64,000 nucleotides of DNA from Phaeotremella fagi (taxonomy: Eukaryota > Basidiomycota > Tremellomycetes > Tremellales > Phaeotremellaceae), in the NCBI GenBank assembly GCA_001599715.1, contig BCHU01000001.1, positions 1-64,000 on the forward strand, read 5' to 3'. Below, piece by piece: positions 996-61,108 of the stretch (within the stretch, counting starts at the first letter, position 1; the number at the start of each line of letters is the position of its first letter). The notes beneath the pieces were generated by a model, which was not told where the DNA came from, did not search any database, and saw only the letters and a list, made by a program, of their open reading frames with translations. Made by a program: the position numbers and the translations under genes.

Positions 996-1883
996 AGCGA
1001 GCTGAACTGAAAGATGGATGTTAAGTGTGAGAAAGTAGATGTTTGATTTTGATTTGGTGCTACGATCAAATCGTGTTTACTGATTTTATGGCCGAGTTTT
1101 GATGAACAGAGAAAAAGGGAAAGAAATCGCGGATAGATTGGTGGTGTAGGAGGATGTATGTACAGGGACAGCTGTGATGCAGTGTACAGCGAGAACAATA
1201 AGAGTTAAGAGATGAAATAAAGATGAGATGGAAAGAAATGAAAAGAAATCAAACAATAAACTTGTTTACGTGGTTGTCAACCAACATGAAACACTCACAA
1301 CACAACACCAGCTAGACCACCATCAGCATCAATCAAAACACTCCCTTCCCTTCCCTTCCCTTCCTCCCTCTCACCTCCTCGCCGTCCCCTCTCACTTTTA
1401 TCCCCTATCATCTGAACCTGGACCTATTATCATTGATCGTTCCTACGTCCCTGTTGATAAACAAAATATTCATCTTTGATAAGTTACTGTACACACCCCC
1501 AAAGTCCCAAAGTGGCGACCTCTTTCTGCCACAATGCATGCATACAGTATATTCTATTCTTGCTCCGATTTACGAAATCTTAAATGAAAACTAGAAATAA
1601 CATGATCTGTCCTTCTCTTGTCTTCTAGCGTACTTCTTTCGGTCTTCCAGTGCATTCCAGGATGAACTCAGCTCATTTAAAAAATGCAATTTTTGGACTT
1701 AACATCAGTCAATAAAAGGACGCAGTCGGGTCGATTGGGCATTTCGAAGGGCCTGTCAAATTGCGTAGATAACATATTGCATTAGTTTATACGTAAAAAA
1801 GAAAGCCTTTTCGAAAACTCCTTCTTTCTTAAAACTCCAACAATCTCCACACTCAATATCAACTTATATACTCTTTGCACAGA
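996..1883. other. Intergenic interval with CT-rich microsatellite
   Basis: This divergent promoter region lies between the zinc-finger gene (-) and the first copy of the tandem duplication (+). It contains a CCCTT-type pyrimidine repeat (1342-1364). From about 1430 onward it carries sequence that reappears upstream of the second copy (2811-3210). I see no supported gene. Confidence 0.6.
1342..1364. repeat. CCCTT microsatellite
   Basis: Four tandem units of a TTCCC pentamer lie in the intergenic pyrimidine-rich stretch. The short tandem repeat is visible directly. Confidence 0.8.
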
Positions 1884-2501
1884 ATGCTAGGTTATGGTCA
1901 ACAATCAGCTAGTTCTTCCATCAAACCAATGGATTTAACCAACGTTGGAAGTAACGCCAAAGTCCTCAAGGCAGTCATCTCAGAGAACGTTAAAGTCACA
2001 GGCAAGTCTTACGACGCAAGATCCGGTCTATATTTATATTCAAATTTTTATCTTCGTCGAGGAGATTCGGTTTATTTCGGTGAAGATGAGATACGATTTC
2101 CCGATAGAACTGCGACTTTTCATATGGTAGATCCTTCCACGCAACGAACCCTCAGGTGCTTTCAAGGGCACACAACCAGGTCATCGACCAGTCAAGATAG
2201 TCGTGATCCTCGCCCATCTCCTTCTGGTCATCATCATCGCCCGTCAACTTCGACTGCTGGTCCGTCAACTTCTGTCCCTCATTTCCCATCAACTTCAACT
2301 CCTCGTCCGTCAACCTTTCGTCATCTTCGTCGCCAGTCATTTTCAACTTCTGGTGGTCCCAATGATGGTACCAGAGGTCACCCTTCTCAATACATAGAAG
2401 AGGATGCAGAGTATATGTATGGGGGACCAGCAAGAGCACAAGATATTCCTCGAAGAAAGAAAACCCAACGTCGTCGGCGGTACGACAATGACGAATTGTG
2501 A
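1884..2501 (+). CDS. Unassigned small protein, tandem copy 1
   Basis: A 205-residue single-exon protein of unknown function. The N-terminal ~100 residues look folded (alternating hydrophobics, DLTN near residue 17, then LKAV, YDARSGLYLY and GDSVYFGEDEIRF). The C-terminal half is Ser/Thr/Pro/Arg-rich and disordered, with PSTS-type repeats and a basic end. It is the paralog of the next gene: both share S-S-x-DLTN-x-G, KAV, the SG-x-YLY block and the RTL[RK]C block. I chose the ATG at 1884 because it aligns with the start of copy 2, and both follow CAGAGA/ACAGA-like leaders. No signal peptide or membrane segment is visible. It could be a secreted-free effector-like or regulatory protein, but there is no evidence for a role. 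Confidence 0.7.
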   Translation: MLGYGQQSASSSIKPMDLTNVGSNAKVLKAVISENVKVTGKSYDARSGLYLYSNFYLRRGDSVYFGEDEIRFPDRTATFHMVDPSTQRTLRCFQGHTTRSSTSQDSRDPRPSPSGHHHRPSTSTAGPSTSVPHFPSTSTPRPSTFRHLRRQSFSTSGGPNDGTRGHPSQYIEEDAEYMYGGPARAQDIPRRKKTQRRRRYDNDEL

Positions 2502-3212
2502 GGTTCAGATGAGCCATATCTTTCCAGTAATCACTAGTACGTTTGAGGCGGGGAGGAAACGCTGTGTAAACGGTAGAGTAGAAGCTTTGTTCCAGAGAGA
2601 GAGAGATTGTAAGAGGGACGATAAATTTAGGTATTGAGAAATGCATGTGTTTGAAAAAGATAAAATATCTTACCTCCCTGACTCATTGCAAAACCTGAGT
2701 GATCGAGATCTTACATTCTTGCATTGCATAACATGCATCATAACCCCACTATACAAGATTTAGGATATTCATGCCAAAGATTGAAGAGATAACTTGTTTG
2801 TACTGTAATTCATTGATCGTTCCTACATCCCTTCTGACACTGTAGACAACGCACTTGACCTGCAAAGTGGCAACCTCTAATTTACAAACTACTTGAAATG
2901 AAAACTAGAAATAATATGATCCGTCCTTCTTTCGTCTTCTAGCGCATCATCATCAGTCTCCCAGTGTCTTCTCAGATATAATCAGATGCAATTTAAGCGA
3001 CATTTGAAACACATATTTTGAACTCAGCATCATTCAATGAAAGGTTGCCGTCGGGGCTTGGGTCAATTTTTTGGAAGGGCGCTGTCTAATTGTTTAGATA
3101 ACATATTGTATTACTTTAAACATACAAAAAGAAAGATTCTTCGAACACTCCTTCTTTCTTTAACCTCAACGATCCCCATACTCAACATCAACTTACCTAC
3201 TCTTAACAGAGA

Positions 3213-3791
3213 ATGTCAGGTCGCGCTACAACAAAATCCTCTACAGTCAGGGAATTAGATTTAACCAACTATGGAACTAGAAACCAGATTTTCAAGGCGG
3301 TATTCACACAAAGACAAAGAATCGATCACAGCACTTTCGACAAAAAATCCGGCAAATATTTATACACGACCTTTTGGGTTGAACCAAATGATGTTGTTTA
3401 TTACGGTGTTGGGGAGGCGACTTTTTCCAAAGAACATGCTACGGTATATGAGGTAGATTATTATACCAAACGAACCCTCAAGTGCTCTCAGCAAGACCCA
3501 GCATTCTACCCAGATGTTGAATCAAGCTCATCAACAAGTCATTATCATGAAGCGTTTACTCCTGGTCCGTCAACTGCTGGCAGTCGTTACGATGATACCG
3601 ACAGTCTTCTCCCCACGCGTCCCAGAAATCCTGCTGCTGCAGTTGTACGATCACGCCACCGAAACATTCCTAGCGGAAACCACAGTCAACGTCATCGGAA
3701 GAGTTACGAGGAAGAGAGTGGAAGTATCAGCGACTCCATCAAAAACTCTAAAGGTGGGTCGAGTTCAGAAGACGGATACCGCGTTTGGTAG
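3213..3791 (+). CDS. Unassigned small protein, tandem copy 2
   Basis: A 192-residue single-exon paralog of the preceding gene. It keeps the N-terminal folded-looking region (DLTN, then KAV, then a KSGKYLY strand, then NDVVYYGVGEATF, then RTLKC) and replaces the PSTS-rich tail with a different Ser/Arg/His-rich one. Divergence between the copies is concentrated in the tail. The C-terminus (EDGYRVW) differs from copy 1, so the ends of the two proteins are not conserved. Promoter and 3' flank are duplicated with it. Function unknown. Confidence 0.7.
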   Translation: MSGRATTKSSTVRELDLTNYGTRNQIFKAVFTQRQRIDHSTFDKKSGKYLYTTFWVEPNDVVYYGVGEATFSKEHATVYEVDYYTKRTLKCSQQDPAFYPDVESSSSTSHYHEAFTPGPSTAGSRYDDTDSLLPTRPRNPAAAVVRSRHRNIPSGNHSQRHRKSYEEESGSISDSIKNSKGGSSSEDGYRVW

Positions 3792-45169: not shown

Positions 45170-46397
45170 ATGGGCAAACTCGATCGTAAAAACGCCAAAA
45201 GACACCTGCATGAAGACACAGCTGCACTATCCGTAGCAGACTTCCTTTCCACCTTGTCGACTAAACCAAAGTCCTTCCCCAGGGGTTCAGAACCAATTTC
45301 AAAAATCGTAAATGATGTCGAAACTTATGACAGAGCAGTTGAAAATAGTTCATGGATGACTTTTTGTCAACTGTACAGTTTGACAGAAGCAAGTGAGTTA
45401 TCCACTTCATTTTTTCTAGACAACTAATCCAAAAAAGATTTCTCAACCTATGAAGTTTCCGTCAAAGACAACAAGAACACCGAGCAACCGCTACTAGTCA
45501 TGATTGGTCGCTATGCAGCTTCCAGATGTAAAGATTTGATCAAAGGTCGAATTCTCACACAAGACTTTGTAAACACCATTGAGGGTCAAACCCTCCATTA
45601 CACCGCCCATCAAGACATTGTTCAAACGTTTCTCGGCAAACCACTCGACAGAAAACTTCTCGAAAAAGAGAACACCTTTGATCAATGTTTAAAAGTTCAA
45701 ATTGAGTCGCTAAAAAAGGTCTGGGAATTCTGTCACCTCCCAGATACCCCAGTTACGGAACAAGATAAACTCACGGCTGCTAATCTTACCAGACGAATTC
45801 AGAGTCAAAGCCCACGGCAACACCAGTGAATCTCTACTAACCATGATCGGTCGTTATTCAGTATCCCGATACAATGAAACGTTTGGCGGTCGAAATCTTA
45901 CAGAAGCCTTCATCAATACCCTTGAAGGTCAAACTCTCAGACTCACTTCCGTTCACGATGTTACCCAAACGTATCTCGGCAAGCCGCTTGACAGAAGGCT
46001 TCTGGAAAGAGCGAATACCTTCGATAAATGTTTAGAAGTTCAGATTCAGTCCCTCCATAAGGTTTGGGAGCACTGGAAGCTACCAGATATCCCGGTCACA
46101 CATCTCCATACGACCATCGCTTCTATAGTTATAGATCAAAATTGGGGCAATAAGCGAGGATGGGTTGATACATGGTGGGGTTACCAAAGATCCAAAGGGG
46201 GCTACGCGACCCAAAGAGCCGAGGAGACTGAGTCTGAGGATTTTGGTGAAGGTACATCCAAAGGTAAAGAAAAAGAGGAGACAACAACTCTGAGTAAAGA
46301 GGCGACGGATCAAGGTTCACAAAGCGAAAGTGACGAAAGTGATGCCGAGGTTGAATCCAAATTCCCCAATCTTACCGATAGAAGAATGTTGCGTTAA
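45170..46397 (+). CDS. Unassigned protein with tandemly duplicated domain, family member B
   Basis: A 373-residue protein in exons 45170-45392, 45438-45731 and 45793-46397 (preferred model). Intron 1 (45 nt, phase 1) falls after LYSLTEAN, the same position as in members A and C. The second and third exons each encode one copy of a ~90-residue domain: LLVMIGRYAASRCKD...GQTLHYTAHQDIVQTFLGKPLDRKLLEKENTF and LLTMIGRYSVSRYNE...GQTLRLTSVHDVTQTYLGKPLDRRLLERANTF, shown here in pieces. Intron 2 (61 nt, weak GTCACC donor, good CTAAT branch and CCAG acceptor) keeps frame and rebuilds a conserved Tyr codon. If it is not spliced, the protein stops after 204 residues at 45829. The C-terminal tail is acidic. 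Function unknown. Confidence 0.55.
45460..46120 (+). repeat. Intragenic tandem duplication of one exon
   Basis: Unit 1 (about 45460-45775) and unit 2 (about 45805-46110) align base for base over long stretches (e.g. ATGATTGGTCGCTATGCAGC with ATGATCGGTCGTTATTCAGT). The spacing between the two aligned ATGs is 343 nt, not a multiple of three, so an intron must restore frame. Differences are largely at third codon positions, which suggests selection on both protein copies. Confidence 0.8.
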
Positions 46398-47029
46398 TAC
46401 TGTAGGCTTTACATACAGTAGTCATGTGTCTCGTAAATAATGAATTTTATGGTGTCTTGACTTGGTCATTCACAGACCTAATTTACAAATGACTTCCATG
46501 CTGTACTCCGCATAATACCCGAAACTTCAAGGCGGGTTTTACTTGATGAGCTGGACACACGGCTTCTTTTGAAGTTGACAAGAGGTGGAGCCGTTACGTG
46601 GAGCAGCTACTCTACAATCTAGCAAGACTTTAAGTCTTATCACTGATTTTCCCGATTTCCTAGATATCCTGTAGCCCGTGGTCGCTACAGCAACGTTAGA
46701 CTCAAGATGCACAATGAGGAGGTTCACAAGCAAGTATTGAGGACGAGTTGTTGCAAGTTCAGCCGAAGGAAGTGGATGTTATTTTCCAGAGTAGATTTAC
46801 CGAAACTCAAAACCCGATAATTTAGAGTCACTTCCAATAAAACGAGAATCTGAAGCCTTCGAACGGAGAAAAGTCGTGCACGAAGCCAAAGGACTTCTTT
46901 GATGCAAATACTGTGGAGCGCTGAGTTGTGACTCGTCCTATGTCTTTATTCCTTCTTTCCTCTTTTACTTCCACTTTTCTCCAACACTTGATTCCCCACT
47001 GTAGACTCACTCAACATTACTCAAAAATC
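46398..47029. other. Intergenic interval
   Basis: 632 bases between members B and C. Small open frames on both strands have no coding signal. The CT-rich stretch 46945-46985 likely belongs to the promoter of member C. Confidence 0.4.
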
Positions 47030-47920
47030 ATGTACCAATTCACTTCTACAGATCGGCAAACTGCGAGATTTATGAAAGAAGCCACTCTTAGAAGTAGTGA
47101 TGATGGATCGACCACTCAACGACAAAAATGGTCTTTTCCTATGGGGAAAGGTAGTAACACAGTTCCCGACAGTGCCATCATCGACGAGGCCAAGAGTCGT
47201 GTCTGGATGGTGATGCGTCAATTGTATTCCTTGAACGACGACGGTAAGTGTTCTGAGGTGTCGCTCAAAGACAAGAATATAAGCACAAGTCGCTGAAGCT
47301 GACTTGGTTCAGATTCCATACAAAAAGATGTCAAGATCAAGAAGAATAATAAAGGTAAACAAAAGGTCCCGTTCAACCACCAAGAGATAATCAAAGACGT
47401 CACCAGAGTCTATCTTACTCGTGAAAAGGCCGAACAGCAGAGTATGGGTATCAATGACTTTGAGCTAGAGAACAGTCTCGCGGGAAAACAGTATACCTTC
47501 ACCGCGATCCACGAGATTGTCAACAGTCACCTCTCAAAAGATATCGATATCAAAAAACTTCTCAAAAACACTGATTCAGGATTCGAAAGCTGTTTAAAGT
47601 CTCAAGTCGACGCTATGAAAGAAGTTTGGAGTCGTTTAAAACTCCGTGAGATGAACGGCGCTATTGTTACTCAATATCATGAAAGGATTATGTCAGAGGT
47701 TGGAAGTGATCCTCGAGGGTGGGTTGGGAAGTTGAGTTCGTTATTACAAGAGGTTGATGATAAGACGGATGGTTCCAGTGGAAAGGGAAAGGGAGTATTC
47801 ACGTTGGTCACAGAGAGTCAGGATGAAGGTGTTTTGGAAGCGATGAAAATGGTCCAACAAATAATGTTGCAGGACGGTCTGAATGTTGAGATTCAGACCA
47901 ACGGTAGTAGCTCACAATGA
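47030..47920 (+). CDS. Unassigned protein, 44-48 kb family member C
   Basis: A 273-residue protein in exons 47030-47243 and 47313-47920, phase 1, with a 69-nt intron (GTAAGT donor, GGTTCAG acceptor). The intron follows RQLYSLNDD, equivalent to CQLYSLTEAN in member B. The domain in the second exon reads GKQYTFTAIHEIVNSHLSKDIDIKKLL, then SCLKSQVDAMKEVW; it aligns with both copies in member B (GQTL...YTAHQDIVQTFLGKPLDRKLL, CLKVQIESLKKVW). RGWVGKL near the end matches RGWVDTW of B. The tail is Gly/Ser/Gln-rich. No known domain or catalytic motif; helical content predominates. Function unknown. Confidence 0.6.
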
Positions 47921-51658: not shown

Positions 51659-52018
51659 GGGATCTCGATTCTGATTTGATCAAATTTGGTTTTCTGAATT
51701 GGAGTGATTGGGAACGAAATACAACTGTGCTTTTATTAAATGTTGACTTTTACATGTATCTTAGATTTATTCATACTTTGAGATCTATTTTAAGACCCGG
51801 CTAAAGATCATGCCGCAACACCCCACCACAACGCAATCAAAAAGTCCGATGCATACATCCAAAGAACAACCTCGAGGTAAGAGGTAAAATGTGATAAGTA
51901 CTAAGTAATAGCTAAAGCAGAAAATGGAATATGGAATAGGGAACCAGTCAAAATGGACGTGACGTGTGTACGAAAATGGTCATGAGAATTTGGGGTATAA
52001 AGTGGGAATGTATAGAAT
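51659..52018. other. Intergenic interval
   Basis: 360 bases between two minus-strand genes. No gene; contains the methyltransferase promoter and the KRE6 3' flank. Confidence 0.4.
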
Positions 52019-54378
52019 CTAACAACCGAGTAAAGAATTTTTCTGCACACTCTCATCAGCATTTGACACCTAATCAACTGAAAAAAAGAACCTACTGGAG
52101 TGGTATACCCCGCGGCCTCCCAAGTGGTCAAATTAGGATTGTTATAAGCGTTAGCGTGGTTAGCGATGTAATCCGCCGTAGGTCTGTCCGAGGGGTTACA
52201 ACCTATTTTCCCGTCTGATCGTTGATACACCCTGACGTAGTCTACTAACATCGTAGCTGGCCAAACGAGGTTGTTGAATTCAACAGTTTGGAAATTGTTT
52301 GACATTCCGAAATTGATGATCTAAATTCTGTATCAGTATGAAACATGGAATGGAAATGGGTGGAGACATACCATCGCCATTGGCTCTTCCGTTATTAATC
52401 TCTGTCCAACTTGGGTCTTCGCATTTGGACCTATAGAAGTAGCCGACATGGTCCAAGATTCCACACCGGAGGCTACCCAAGTGATATGACCCGTAGATCT
52501 AGCACTAGGGTTGGCGTAATATTCGAATCCTGCGTCAAACAAAATCAGCCTTCCACCCGCACCTAAAGCCTCCCGCCTCCCCACTTACCATAAGTATTGA
52601 AATTAGCTCCAGTACCGGTATAAACGTTATTAGGAACATAAGTCAAAGCACTAGCAGCTTGTTGGTAATAACCACCCAAGTACGTGTTCCAATAAGTTAA
52701 ATCAGTGTTGATCATCTGAGCGTAAGCGGTCCCATTCTGGAATTGGTAGTAATCGTCGAACGGCGCGATTTGGGCTGATTGCGAAACCTGACCTCTGGAC
52801 AGGTCTGTTCGGATTTGGGCTTCGATGACATCGATTTCTGGAACTCCTCGACCGTAGGTTACAGCTGGTCCTGCGTGGTCTTCGCCTGGACACGTACAGG
52901 CTGACATTCTTTGTCCGGGGAGGCTGGAGTGTTGTTAGTACTAGCATTTGGTGAAAGTGGTAGGAGAGAAAAAGCAAAGGAATGACAAAAATCAGATCAA
53001 ACGATTGATCGGTGCAACCACCATGAAAAATTGTAACAGTTGTCCCACAAACAAAGACCCAACACTCACTATGATATCGAACCCCCATTAGCACCAGTAG
53101 TAAGTGCCGCGGTCGGACCCGTCCCATCAGCCGTCGTCTGATTCTTCAGCGTCCCCAAATCACAACTATCATAAGTATACGGCCAAGTCCCATCGGTCGT
53201 AGCTCCATAACCCGGACGTCCCAAATTCCCCATCATCCAAACACCAGGCCAGAAACCACCATGGATGTTGTTACCCGGTAAACTGACCGAGACTTCGATG
53301 TAGGTCGAATACTGGAAACACATTTGATTCCATGATTGGAGCATTCCTGATTTGAAATTTAGGTCGTGCAGGGGTTCTTGGGTCATTGTTATGACCAAGT
53401 GACCGTTTTTGGTGGTTATAGCTGATGGATCGTACCATTCGAAATCTCCTGTTGGCCAGTAGTGTAGGTCACTATGACGGTTTTAGTATGGATTAAAATT
53501 AACAAGGAAAGTTCACCTACACAGCAGTCCAGTATGGATCATCACCAGGGTAAAAAGTTCTCCCGTCTTTATTAAATTCATCAGAGAAAGCCAAAGTGTA
53601 TTGTTGTTTATCGAATCCCGTTCTGGTATAAGCAGATTTGGGCGTATCAGGATCAATGACCGATACGAAATTGGTGATCTTGGGAACTTGACCTGTTGAA
53701 TTGATACCACCGAGATTGTAGGCTCCGTTGGTTTGTAACGATGTTTCGGTGTAGTGGGAGATGATTGGGTAACCGGCGAAGAGGGTTATGATGGCTAGGG
53801 CTAGGAAGAAGAGACACCCGATGTTGGCGAATCCTCTTGCTGTGAAGATTGTACCGCCGCGGTCGTTCTGGGCAATGTTAGTAAGGATAAACGTGAACGT
53901 GGACGTGATCAGGGTAAAGTCGAAAGGGGGGTATTGGGATAAGAACGGAAGTTGAATATGAGTGTGAGGGGAGAGGGGTGGATGGGGAGGACAGAAGGAA
54001 AAGTAAAATAGTTCTGATGATGAAGATCAAAAGTGAAAACACCATCAAGAACCTCATCCATCACCTAAAAAAAACACAGCAAAACAAAGAAACCAAACCC
54101 ACCCGTCTATCCCGTTTAGGATCAGGATTATGTAAATAATCATCAGCTTCCGGATTAAGTCCCTCCATCCCAGAACTCCACGCAGCGTCCTGTGAAAAAC
54201 CAGAAGCATTCTTATCACTCGAAACGACGGATCCAGCGGGTGAACCTAACAAAGTAGCGTTGGCTGGGATAGGTGCTGCGGAAGCTGTTGGACCGTATCG
54301 TCTTGCTGGGGGCTGTGGGTGGGTTAGTGTTATTTCTGGGAGGGGTTTGGAGGTTAGGGGAGGTGGATTATAGGACAT
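52019..54378 (-). CDS. KRE6: KRE6/SKN1 beta-1,6-glucan synthesis protein
   Basis: A type II membrane protein of the GH16 fold required for beta-1,6-glucan in the cell wall. Exons (minus): 54103-54378, 53521-53867, 53070-53471, 52589-52923, 52372-52529, 52096-52320, 52019-52042, giving 588 residues. The cytosolic N-terminus ends NPEADDYLHNPDPKRDRR; the membrane segment is FANIGCLFFLALAIITLFAG. GH16 catalytic motif EIDVIEAQ at about 371-378, preceded by GGFWPGVWMMGNLGRPGYG and RMSACTCPGEDH. The last exon codes only KNSLLGC plus stop, matching the conserved C-terminus. A longer cytosolic tail is possible if the Gln/Asn-rich exon at 54866-55264 splices (phase 0) to an acceptor at 54313-54314, giving about 699 residues, closer to yeast Kre6 (720). 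Confidence 0.92.
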
Positions 54379-54865
54379 TATGATTATATTGGATTTAATA
54401 GATGGATGGAGAAAAAGAAGTTGTGGTTGTGATGTTTGCACGGACTGGGAATGAAAAGGTACCACCACGTTGGGTGATGGGTTTCAACCTCCTTGACTAG
54501 ATCACCATCAAGTATGAATCATCTCATCAAGATTTCCAACGTATACCCTCCAAACGGATAAGTAAGAGATCCGTAGCAGACCTGGGGACCCGGAGATAAC
54601 ACTCAAACATAAACAAGAATCCAAACTAGACTCATCGATCGCAGTTTAAGTCTATCTACCCCAGACTGCGATGTAATCACAAACAGGAGAAAACACCTTT
54701 CCTTTGTTTACGAGAGCAATTTCCAAATGATCATACTCTGAAAAGTCAAATCAAAGAGAAAGTACGAATGCTCCACAAGATCGAGGGGGAGCTAACACCG
54801 CCCGCCTCACAAACACACCAGAGCATAAAATCTGAGATGGAATCACACCAAAACACCCCACTCAC

Positions 54866-55264
54866 CTGTTGTCTATCAGCCAACAACGCCGATTGACTAT
54901 CACCCCGACCAGGCATTCCACCTCTAGCATTAGGACCATAACTTCTACTTGGTGCCATGTTGTTATTATTATTATTATTACTTAAAAGAGTGGTAGACGC
55001 GGTAACTCCAGGACTGGGTGTACGTGAATAATTCCTATCACTGAATGGGTTGTTGTTCTGACTTTGGTTTTGATTAAATTGAGAAGAAGTTGGGGTGGGT
55101 GTACTACTAGGTGAAGGAGGTGGTAGAGGTTGATAAAAATTTTCACGTTCTTGTTTAATGATTTGATGAGAGGATTGGTTAGCTGTGTTGGGTTGTGAGA
55201 ATGCGTATCCAGTGTTATTATTGGTGTTGGTGGTGTTGGTGTTATTGTTCTTCTTGTTGAACAT
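54866..55264 (-). CDS. Probable alternative upstream exon of KRE6 (Asn/Gln/Ser/Pro-rich)
   Basis: An ATG-started frame of 133 codons ending at a canonical GTGAGT donor. It is Asn/Thr/Ser/Pro-rich with a poly-Asn run (AAT-type repeat near 54963-54982) and ends APSRSYGPNARGGMPGRGD...LLADRQQ. SYGP resembles RRYGP in KRE6 exon 1. Splicing in phase 0 to the CCCACAG acceptor at 54313 would fuse it in frame to PPARRYGPTASA of KRE6 with a 553-nt intron, long for this genome. It may instead be the first exon of a short independent gene; no other in-frame acceptor was found before 54480. Confidence 0.45.
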
Positions 55265-55964: not shown

Positions 55965-57771
55965 CTACCACAACCGAGGAGCGACAAACTGATACCCCTC
56001 AGGAATACTAAACCCATTACCCCCCATCCCTAAATGCGGTAAAACAGGTAAAGCCTGGGTAGTATTCCAAACAGGGCAAAGTTGGCTATAAACCGGTGTC
56101 CCATAAAGTAAATTCGGGTTATAAGGTGGTGAAGAATATCTATAACTCTGTTGTGTAGGACCTTGGATCGGGGTGTAGATGAATGAGCCGCTGCTAGCGG
56201 TTGGAGGTTTTTTGTTAGATGAACTGGAAGATTGGGCTCGACGTTTCGATTTATTCTTGGAACTTGAATCGAGTTGGATTTCTTGTTGGAGTTGGGTGAA
56301 TGATTTAGTGGGAACCATCTGGTTTGGGGGGTTGAATACGAATGGTTCACCGAGGGTTAGGTCTATTGTTGTGTGTGAAGATCCTGAGGTTGATCTGGAC
56401 GTTGAGGAGGAAGATCGGGTTTGGGTTGGGATGGAATATGCGATTTGGGGTTTGGTAGTTGACGTTGAGGGGAGGGAGGCTGAGACTACGCTAACTGAGG
56501 AGAGAGATGTTTTGTGTGAGAGTGGGGTGACTACTTCGTTCTCGATTGGTGTTGATAGAACCTAAAAGGGGTTAGTATCAATCATCAACTAAAATCAAGA
56601 TCGAAAAGAAGAAACAAGAATTGTGATATCGAAATCAAGACCATCACCATCAAGATTAAGAAAATCAAAATCGAAAATCAAGTCAAAGAACAACGAATTC
56701 CAACAAATCTCAATCAATAACAAAAGGATTACCCACCTCCTGAACCCAAGCCCCAACCCGTTCCTCCTCCCGCTTCTCAACATACCCCCTCATCCTCCCA
56801 ACAGCCCCAACAACCTCTGCCCGCCCCTCCAAACCCCTCTCCACACCCTCAATCAAATCAGCCATCCCCCGTCGATCACCAGCGCAATACAAATCCTTAA
56901 TCTCCGTCCAACCACTACGTCGTCTCCAGTTAGTCAAGTCCGATTCCACTTTGATCCTTGGGATACCTGAGGCGGCTGAGAGGAGGTCTTTTTCGGTGCT
57001 GGTTGGGAAGGGGTAGCTTAGGTTTTGGAGGAACCAGAGGCGGAGGGGTTGGGGGTCTTCGGGGATTATGTTCTTGTTGGGGGGTTTGGGTGCGGTGGTG
57101 GTGGTGGTGGTTGTTGATGGTGAGGATGCTGATGAAGTGAATGAGGTAGTTGATGGTGTCATAGGTGATATTGTTTGATTGAAGTTAGATTGGATTGATT
57201 TAGATGATTTCGACGACGGGGTGGAGATTGGAGTTAGGGGTTGGTGCGGTGTTGAGGGTGAGCTTTGATCAGATGATGATTCTGGGGGTGGTGAGGGTGA
57301 CGAATCCGGTGAGAGGGAGTATCGAGATCGCTTGGCAAATCTCACACACTCCGACTCTGGTCGTTTCTGCCTCGACGTGTCTCCTAAACGACAGGTTAGT
57401 GAGCCGCTATAACAATTCGAGACTCGAAAAGGTGACTTGGTGACTTATGAATCACTTTACTTACCAATGGTGAACGAATCGAAATTACGAAGCAATCGAT
57501 CAATGTTCGTATCCTGTTCCACCTGGGCGTCGAGCAATGACCGAACAATGACGGTCATATTCGTTGATACACTCAATCCAATCAAAGCTGTTGTATCATC
57601 CAATATTCCATCGTCTTTGAACCTTGACACTTCTTCTGAGATACTTCTTAGATGAACAGCAACTTTATGGAGACCATCATCAGACGTCTGGGCGTTTTGT
57701 AGAAAGTGTTGGTAGATCTCCGTGATCTTCATTCGAAGACCTGTCTGCGAATGAATGTCATACTTGAACAT
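55965..57771 (-). CDS. HD1 mating-type homeodomain transcription factor (SXI1-like)
   Basis: A 516-residue HD1-class protein, the partner of HD2 in the sexual-compatibility factor of basidiomycetes. Exons (minus): 57465-57771, 56737-57383, 55965-56561. The first exon codes an N-terminal helical region (MFKYDIHSQTGLRMK, then SISEEVSRFKDDGIL) of the kind that determines self/non-self dimerisation. A Ser/Thr/Pro linker follows. The atypical homeodomain spans about 215-262: LRLWFLQNLSYPFPTSTEKD, then DLTNWRRRSGWTEI. The RRRSGW ending is diagnostic of HD1. The usual W-F pair of helix 3 is replaced by D-L while the Asn and Arg contacts remain. The C-terminus is Ser-rich with a basic SKNKSKRRA stretch. 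Divergent to HD2, 195 bp apart. Confidence 0.88.
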
Positions 57772-57966
57772 AACCGATGATAAATCAGACTATAAATTAG
57801 TTACAAGAGAAGAAGTAAATAGACGAAAAATCAAGAAGAGGAAGATAGAATTTAGACCTCTGACAACCAATGCACCCGCGTTTCATGATCGTAGCCTTTT
57901 GTTCTCACCATCCTTACTAATTGATTTTTACTTGTCATCTTGCTTCTAAACGTATAAGTCCACATC
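57772..57966. promoter_or_regulatory. Shared HD1/HD2 bidirectional promoter
   Basis: The 195 bases between the HD1 start codon (57771) and the HD2 start codon (57967) are A/T-rich and must contain both promoters. Head-to-head HD genes with a short shared promoter are the standard arrangement of the basidiomycete HD locus. I did not identify a specific operator. Confidence 0.75.
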
Positions 57967-60066
57967 ATGCTCCCTTCTCAGGACCTCCTCAAGTTGATCC
58001 AAACCTCTTCAGCAATACAGGAATATTGCGAAAAATTTTACGACGACTCTCAAAACAAACCCTTACAAACGACTGGTCTCTCTCCATGTCTTGAAGATCC
58101 CAGATGGAGGTTACCCACTTTCTCCAAGGGCCGAGCATTTACTGTGATGGCTGAATTTGAGAGGGCTTCAAATAGCTATGTTGAAGGTCTTAAACAGCGA
58201 ATCATGCTGCGCTTTCATGATACTTGTCAACGTTTCTTTTCCCTAGACAACGTTGGAGGAGGATCAGACTGTCATCATGAGCAACGCTTGTGTCAGGTGT
58301 TTGAAGCAATGTACATCTATCACATCAAGAAAGCGGAACACCGCATCGTATCCTTCTGTGAAAAGTTGTCACAACTCGACGACGCAGATAGTCGGTCATC
58401 CCATTCAGAAGTGAGTTCGCCCCATAAGACAGATCGATTTCTAACGATATCAGCATTCAATCGAGCTCCTCCAACGAGCATTCAATCACCGTACCACCCT
58501 CACCGCCGCAGAATGTTCAATCTTAGCCAGAGAAACAGGTCTAACACATCAACAGGTAAGTCAAATCGATATTTCCATGCATGAATCAACGTATAAAGTT
58601 CGAAAACTGACACTTCACAGGTCAGAACATGGGTACGTCGTCTCCCCTAAATCACTCCTTTTCTTCTCAATTTTCTCCCTCTATTTATACATCCTTCATT
58701 CTCATACCCATTCTCATCACCACACCCACCCCGCTCGCCACCCAACCCCCTCTTGAAATCGCTTTCAACCACCAATCCACCTCTTCCCAACGAACAAAAA
58801 GCTTTTTCGTTTCGCACAGACCGCACGTGCCCCCACCCCCCTAACCCTGTAAATTTCTTTTTGTTCTCCGTCTCCACTTTTCACACGATCAGCACGGATC
58901 CCTCCCTGCTACGTAGTTGTGTTTCATCCCGTTCCAAATAGTCTTTTTGTCTTTTCGCCACAATGTGGCACATCGCTAACTTCTTGCTGTAGTTCCAAAA
59001 TCGTCGTAATAGAAAAGTCAAGAAGGAACGTAGGATCTTCTCGAATTCGGTTTTGGAGGGTAGAGTTACTCTACCGGTCCCAGATCCTCGTCGAGTCATT
59101 TCAGCACTTCCAAAACGAGCTACCGTGCAACCCACCGACGATTCACCGCGAGAATTCAAATCTCTCCCAAAACGCAAAGAAAGGCGTCCCTCACCATCAT
59201 ACTCAACCTCATCTTCCGATACCGTCTCCTCAACAGATTCCCTCCCCCCAACAGGAGGATTCATGTCACCCCTCGATCTCCATCTTTCAAAACAAGAAAT
59301 AATCCAAAGGAACCAACAAACTTTCCAACCAATTTTCAATTTCACACCCCCAACACCGTTAAACTCATCTTTCAACCTCAATCTATCAGAGATAACCTTC
59401 ACCGAACCTATTAGGTATGATACCCATTCCCCGACACCGGAATTCGATCCTCATCGACAACTATCCATTTCACCGGAGGTGGAGGATTGGAGTTTGCACG
59501 GGTTGTTTGATTTAGATGGGATTTTGCCTGATCAGGGGTTCTCGGAGTTGTTGGAATCGTTATCTTCTGTTGAGGGTTTGGAGGGGTTGTTCGCTGAAGC
59601 CGAAGCTGAAGCTGGATCGATGGATTTGGGTGCTACTTCTGGCGCTGGTTCTGGAACTGGCACTGGTTCCGACACCAGTGCCGAGGTTAAGATGGATGAT
59701 GAAGTTGAGAAACCAGAGGAAACATATCTTACATTCGAATACGTCGAATCACCCAAACAAATGGAATCGGAATTCGAAGGTTCAATCTCAGGTTCAACCA
59801 CACCATCCTCATGCGGTAGCGGCAGCGGTAATAACTCAACCACATCAGCAAGCTCCTACTCCTCAACCGGATCATATTTCGACCAATCCAATACATCTAA
59901 AAAACCGTCAGAACAAGATAGTACAGTCACCAATTGGACTTCAGGTGTGTTGGCTTTCGATGTAGATATCGCCGCGCCTGAGTTCAATGGTTTGGAGGAT
60001 AAATTTGATGTTGGAGGGGCTTGGGATTTCGAGATGGATTTGGGGTTCATGCGGGACATGGATTAG
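57967..60066 (+). CDS. HD2 mating-type homeodomain transcription factor (SXI2-like)
   Basis: A 543-residue HD2-class protein in exons 57967-58410, 58454-58555, 58621-58632 and 58993-60066, all phase 0. The N-terminal region (1-148) would carry the dimerisation specificity. The homeodomain (about 140-197) runs through four exons: IELLQRAFNHRTTLTAAE and ETGLTHQQ in exon 2, VRTW alone in a 12-nt exon 3, and FQNRRNRKVKKERR from the start of exon 4; helix 3 WFQNRRNR is the typical HD2 sequence with W48, F49, N51 and R53 intact. The third intron is 360 nt, unusually long. The C-terminal half is acidic and Ser-rich with Gly/Thr repeats, typical of an activation region. Confidence 0.9.
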
Positions 60067-60267: not shown

Positions 60268-61108
60268 CTACTCATCATCCTCAGCCTCATCTTGGTCAAC
60301 CTTGAAGTATCTAAGAGAGTAGGTGTCTTTGGAGGTAGCGACGACACTGGGAGTGTTGTCAGTAAATGATTTGCAAAGTTCAGGATGGTCTGGTATGAAC
60401 CGAGCTTCAGTCTGCTGTTCATTCTCAAACAGAACGGTACAACAGCAGACCTAGTCAACGACTTCGTACCACACCACACCTCGACTTACCGGAGGAAATT
60501 CTCGAAAGAGTTTTTCTTCAAGTGTTTCTTGGTTAGGTACTGTGATGCAAGTCAGTGTTGTGGACGTATAGCTGGTGTCCATCGAATGAAGATATCTCGA
60601 CAGCTGAGAAGAACAATGACTCACTTTAAGGTATCTCTTGGAGAATGGGATGGAAGAGGTCAAAAGGAGTTTGTTACCTAGAAAGAGTCAGTTCACGAAT
60701 CAAAGGAAATGATCAGCTATTGGTGACCCACCCTCCTTGGCAATGTTAATAACATCACCGAATTGACCAGTCTTCCCATCAACCTTGATACGGTCGTGCA
60801 AGAATTTCTCGAACGCAGCTGGGTCGAAAACGTTGTCGGAAGCTGGGACTGAGTAGTCGACGTAGAATTTGTGGAGGGGTTTTCCGGCGGTGGCTTTGGG
60901 TTGGGTTGCTTTGGGCTACGCGAGCGACCGGAGAGAGCGAGCGTGGTTATGTGATTGAGTGAGCGTAGCGAACGAAGCCAATAGGTCAGAGTGAATCAAT
61001 CAAAATCGTTAAGGAATGAACGTCAATTCAAAATTGAAGAAAGGAGGGAGGTCATGTCAGCATACATCCCCTCGTCACCACCACCATCTGGGTCTGAGTA
61101 CGCACCAT
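60268..61108 (-). CDS. RPL22: 60S ribosomal protein eL22
   Basis: A 122-residue large-subunit ribosomal protein. Exons (minus): 61106-61108, 60732-60915, 60625-60677, 60490-60539, 60268-60346. The first coding exon is the ATG alone, followed by a GTGCGT donor and a 190-nt intron. Conserved blocks: KFYVDYSVPASDNVFD, FLHDRIKVDGKTGQFG, VTSSIPFSKRYLKYLTKKHL in similar form, and TSKDTYSLRYFKV, with an acidic end EAEDDE. The 143-nt last intron skips from FLR to VVATSKD. I looked for a C/D-box snoRNA in the longer introns and saw none. Many introns at the 5' end are usual for ribosomal protein genes in this group. Confidence 0.92.

Follow-up and report, generated by a model that had tools for sequence, protein, structure and literature searches.

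A divergent HD1/HD2 gene pair beside RPL22 as the very probable homeodomain mating-type locus of a Tremellales yeast

Two homeodomain genes lie next to each other near one end of contig C1 of a Tremellales yeast: do they form its homeodomain (HD) mating-type locus, and what mating system would that imply? We analyzed the first 64 kb of this contig (the window; the contig is 2.41 Mb) within a genome of 22.6 Mb in 24 contigs, with data from one strain. The window carries one intact divergent HD1/HD2 pair beside RPL22, and the pheromone/receptor (P/R) genes are on a different contig. We consider it very probable that this pair makes up the HD (b/SXI) mating-type locus, that the yeast, with Kwoniella species as the nearest named relatives found, is haploid and tetrapolar, and that the locus works by the heteroallelic HD1-HD2 mechanism. 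An earlier note on this DNA had likewise placed an HD mating-type locus in the window, and our analysis supports it. The identification is based on the divergent pair with its orientation and spacing, the homeodomain matches, a three-residue difference between the two classes, relatives that include SXI2 and Kwoniella proteins, the lack of another matching copy, the neighboring RPL22, the P/R genes on contig C12, predicted helical N-termini, weak matches to the CAP1 and SPO14 families elsewhere on C1, and the precedent of heteroallelic Sxi1-Sxi2 pairs in Cryptococcus amylolentus.

Two intact, spliced homeodomain genes are transcribed divergently at 55965-60066 of the window. In spliced models with all introns GT-AG, both are open from ATG to stop, and their start codons at 57771 (-) and 57967 (+) leave 195 bp between them (57772-57966), the arrangement that the earlier note had described. 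The HD1-type motif it had named, DLTNWRRRSGW, can be read directly on the minus strand, inside ORF (open reading frame) 56710-57345. The HD2-type motif, WFQNRRNR, is also present, but it is not contiguous in the DNA; splicing creates it, with W closing a 12-nt exon (58621-58632) and FQNRRNR opening the exon at 58993. The HD2 introns measure 43, 65, and 360 nt; at the position of the 360-nt intron, the gene model of one relative (P0002) likewise enters the homeodomain, with FQNKRNR. Two other HD2 models, a single 205-aa ORF ending at 58584 and a splice model without the 43-nt intron, were rejected, since neither keeps the homeodomain in frame. The 360-nt intron is far longer than the other two, and its retention would break the recognition helix.

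For HD1, a longer model with an ATG at 57938 and an extra 5' exon is also open and would leave 28 bp between the genes. It requires the donor GTCTAA, which we judged weak, its support among relatives is mixed, and we did not prefer it. When six HD1 relatives were aligned, the column of the 57771 start coincided with an 'MF' start in P0001, an 'MA' start in P0005, and an 'MF' in P0006. In P0006 and P0007, though, the modeled genes extend further upstream, and P0008 has no N-terminus, so the start at 57771 is favored but not proved.

HD1 matches the Pfam family Homeobox_KN (PF05920) at 3.1e-8, and HD2 matches Homeodomain (PF00046) at 3.8e-13 over residues 142-193, a match spanning the positions of all three introns; these E-values exclude chance. 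Spliced HD2 also matches PF05920, weakly (24.3 bits). The distance from the helix-1 F to the helix-3 N is 34 steps in HD1 versus 31 in HD2. Four of the six HD1 relatives (P0005-P0008) share the 34 steps, the other two (P0001 and P0009) not fitting the search pattern, and SXI2 of Cryptococcus neoformans has 31. According to PMC2873909, HD1 proteins are distinguished from HD2 proteins by three extra residues, which that source places between helices 1 and 2, whereas our measurement spans helix 1 through helix 3.

The genome holds other homeodomain genes (PF00046 matches), and the presence of a homeodomain is therefore not diagnostic in itself. A genome search with PF00046 (E up to 1) gave nine matches, one being HD2's own exon and seven over the cut-off, and the solved structures matched by HD2 are generic homeodomains, yeast MATa1 among them. 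That HD1 and HD2 are ordinary regulators with no mating role is nonetheless extremely improbable, given their divergent layout, the SXI2 relative, the HD1-specific spacing, the adjoining RPL22, and the fact that HD1 is the sole six-frame KN-type match of the genome. Genome searches with the HD1 and HD2 proteins (E up to 0.001) returned the exons of this locus alone (three of three matches each).

Among the matches listed for the HD2 protein is SXI2 of C. neoformans (E 3.1e-16), which aligns with 52% of the query at 27% identity; the others are a contig protein without a name (5.9e-21) and one marginal hit (8.6e-4). For HD1, one search gave a Kwoniella pini protein, and a search with the homeodomain region gave three unnamed proteins and those of Kwoniella sp. 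DSM 27419 and K. dendrophila; no relative named SXI1 was among the matches listed. Neither the HD1 nor the HD2 searches had the species' own record among the matches listed, the named Kwoniella matches are distant, and judging by sequence none of the relatives appears to be the same species. In the first two protein searches, scoring was limited to the 7981 and 7992 candidates with the most words in common, and relatives may have been missed.

The immediate neighbors are a KRE6/SKN1-family gene and RPL22, in line with the KRE6 and RPL22 of the earlier note. RPL22, CAP1, and SPO14 are termed HD-associated in PMC12510652, and RPL22 is described as HD-linked in PMC2873909 as well; the name KRE6 is absent from the text of both sources, figures aside. 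Further along C1, 47-53 kb from the HD locus, there are two weak and short matches, one to the CAP1 family (PF05686; C1:106954-107091, 23.1 bits alone and 41.2 with its neighbors) and one to the SPO14 family of phospholipase-D (PLDc) proteins (C1:112721-112789, E 0.002).

While the HD locus is on C1, the 621-639 kb stretch of C12 carries STE3, a pair of STE12-like genes, and a pheromone-like ORF with a CAAX end. Placement of HD and P/R on separate contigs fits a tetrapolar layout; separate chromosomes are not proved. The strain is probably haploid and tetrapolar, and its recognition mechanism would, by homology, be that of its relatives. Once two partners have fused, HD1 from one allele would pair with HD2 from the other through the predicted helical N-termini; this heteroallelic pair would bind DNA via its homeodomains and turn on the dikaryotic/sexual program. 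An HD1-HD2 pair from a single allele would stay inactive, blocking selfing. Post-fusion development in C. amylolentus reportedly requires a single heteroallelic Sxi1-Sxi2 pair, which also suffices for it (PMC13059729). In C. heveanensis, the alleles of both HD genes are described as differing chiefly in their 5' halves (PMC2873909), and PMC12510652 places mating-type differences mainly in the N-terminal regions.

Several points weigh against this interpretation. AlphaFold is reported to predict homoallelic dimers too (PMC13059729), leaving the self/non-self step not fully explained even there, and the HD1 relatives are labeled only as uncharacterized, hypothetical, or KN-homeodomain proteins. 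The N-terminal folds come from single-exon, single-sequence models of low (HD2) to moderate (HD1) confidence. The earlier note had further predicted allele-specific N-terminal halves; our comparisons of N-termini are all between species, with one strain of this yeast. The HD1 homeodomain region is 49-65% identical to those of the six relatives (49-52% for the three named Kwoniella proteins), and for the five that have an N-terminus, identity is 17-25% there versus 51-65% in the homeodomain region. Because the HD1 linker (17-41%) and C-terminus (7-31% in the aligned part) are also weakly conserved, low conservation between species is not specific to the N-terminus, and the contrast reflects conservation of the homeodomain no less than N-terminal variability. 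Between HD2 and SXI2, the N-terminus (26% identity) is not the least conserved part: the homeodomain is 38% identical, residues 201-330 are 39% identical, and the remaining C-terminal 213 residues are 15% identical. For the CAP1 and SPO14 families, orthology is not shown, because the matches are weak, short, and at family level, with the stronger of two matches elsewhere (C1:800 kb; C7). Finally, C1 and C12 may be parts of one chromosome. C12 begins with a telomere repeat and therefore could join C1 by its far end alone; an exact-pattern search found no telomeric repeat at the start of C1 (seven matches on six other contigs), and the HD locus, at 56 kb from that contig end, may or may not be subtelomeric. 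If the open left end of C1 met the right end of C12, coordinate arithmetic would place HD and P/R at least about 0.46 Mb apart.

A different reading is an intact HD locus in a homothallic or asexual species, where the locus no longer decides mating compatibility. The two STE12-like genes on the P/R contig recall the recombined P/R loci reported for K. ovata and K. endophytica (PMC12510652), and C3 has three further STE3-like stretches. However, on C12 only one STE3 gene was matched, only one of the two CAAX-ending ORFs in the scanned 40 kb was judged pheromone precursor-like, and both HD genes are open, and we regard this reading as unlikely. About equally doubtful is a placement of the yeast in a Kwoniella-like lineage, undescribed or unannotated, with an unusual mating system: a standard HD pair would accompany a P/R region with two diverged STE12-like genes and a doubled-peptide precursor, perhaps a two-allele mosaic that could allow partial self-compatibility.

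How does this locus compare with known systems? The HD locus of Kwoniella heveanensis and other tetrapolar Kwoniella species likewise has divergent HD1 and HD2 genes and linked RPL22; P/R is elsewhere in those species, as the separate contigs suggest here, and divergent 5' halves are reported there (PMC2873909, PMC12510652); the HD1 homeodomain region in the window differs in being just 49-52% identical to the named Kwoniella proteins. Relative to SXI1alpha/SXI2a of C. neoformans, HD2 of the window is an SXI2 relative with the same F-to-N spacing, whereas the yeast studied here has both HD genes, with its P/R region on a separate contig. The bE and bW genes of the Ustilago maydis b locus are divergent too; that species belongs to a class distant from this Tremellales yeast. 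As proposed here, HD1 and HD2 of different U. maydis alleles dimerize via variable N-termini (PMC2873909).

The locus is a clear, ordinary example of a well-known kind, and it leaves knowledge of such loci unchanged. It provides HD mating-type genes with exon structure for a species without its own record among the protein-search matches listed, indicates an HD/P-R layout on separate contigs, adds a data point for the tetrapolar-to-bipolar transition in the Cryptococcus/Kwoniella group, and offers targets for strain typing. The P/R features, with two STE12-like genes and a doubled pheromone peptide, are more unusual and better leads than the HD locus itself.

Features of the HD locus and its surroundings (window positions unless a contig is named).
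Feature	Coordinates	Strand	Exons or details	Basis
HD1 (SXI1-type) gene, 516 aa	55965..57771	-	two introns; exons 57771-57465, 57383-56737, 56561-55965	PF05920, relatives
HD2 (SXI2-type) gene, 543 aa	57967..60066	+	exons 57967-58410, 58454-58555, 58621-58632, 58993-60066	PF00046, SXI2 relative
Shared intergenic region, 195 bp	57772..57966		presumed bidirectional promoter	role inferred
360-nt intron of HD2	58633..58992	+	between W and FQNRRNR of the recognition helix	spliced model; P0002 model
HD1 KN-type homeodomain	56917..57036	-		PF05920, sole six-frame match in genome (24 contigs)
HD1 N-terminal exon	57466..57771	-	presumed dimerization/specificity region	predicted four-helix, pLDDT 67.2
HD2 N-terminal exon	57967..58410	+	presumed dimerization/specificity region	predicted helical, three helices, pLDDT 52.7
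RPL22 (eL22)	60268..61108	-	convergent HD2-side neighbor; ends by eye	best PDB match 6.2e-37, spliced model
KRE6/SKN1-family gene	52000..55264 (approximate, by eye)	-	HD1-side neighbor	PF03935 3.6e-32 at 53520-54026
Tandem unknown-protein families	window 1833-3788; window 45714-47917; C1:70528-73091; C1:79492-84229			

The two STE12-like genes lie at C12 ~620.9-623.3 kb and ~634.2-637.0 kb, ~13.6 kb apart. Each has STE-domain exons and a C2H2 stretch, and matching segments are 60-88% identical in coding frames; the P/R region could be a mosaic or duplicated. A scan for CAAX ends in C12:612001-652000 (40 kb) and C3:582001-597000 gave three ORFs, two on C12 and one on C3. On visual inspection, those at C12:644373 and C3:583799 did not resemble pheromones and were discarded. 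The third, at C12:629541-629729, is a 60-aa pheromone-like ORF that ends in CVIA and carries two copies of the 13-residue peptide EDGQYRSGPTAQC, the first of them internal; the pheromone precursors of C. heveanensis are given as 39 aa in PMC2873909. On C3, off the P/R contig, three STE3-like receptor stretches stand in tandem at 584238-591226, where stops may be introns. Scans of the window for tRNAs (bacterial code) and Rfam families gave no matches. Small tandem families of unknown proteins flank the HD locus on both sides, their members 26-51% identical.
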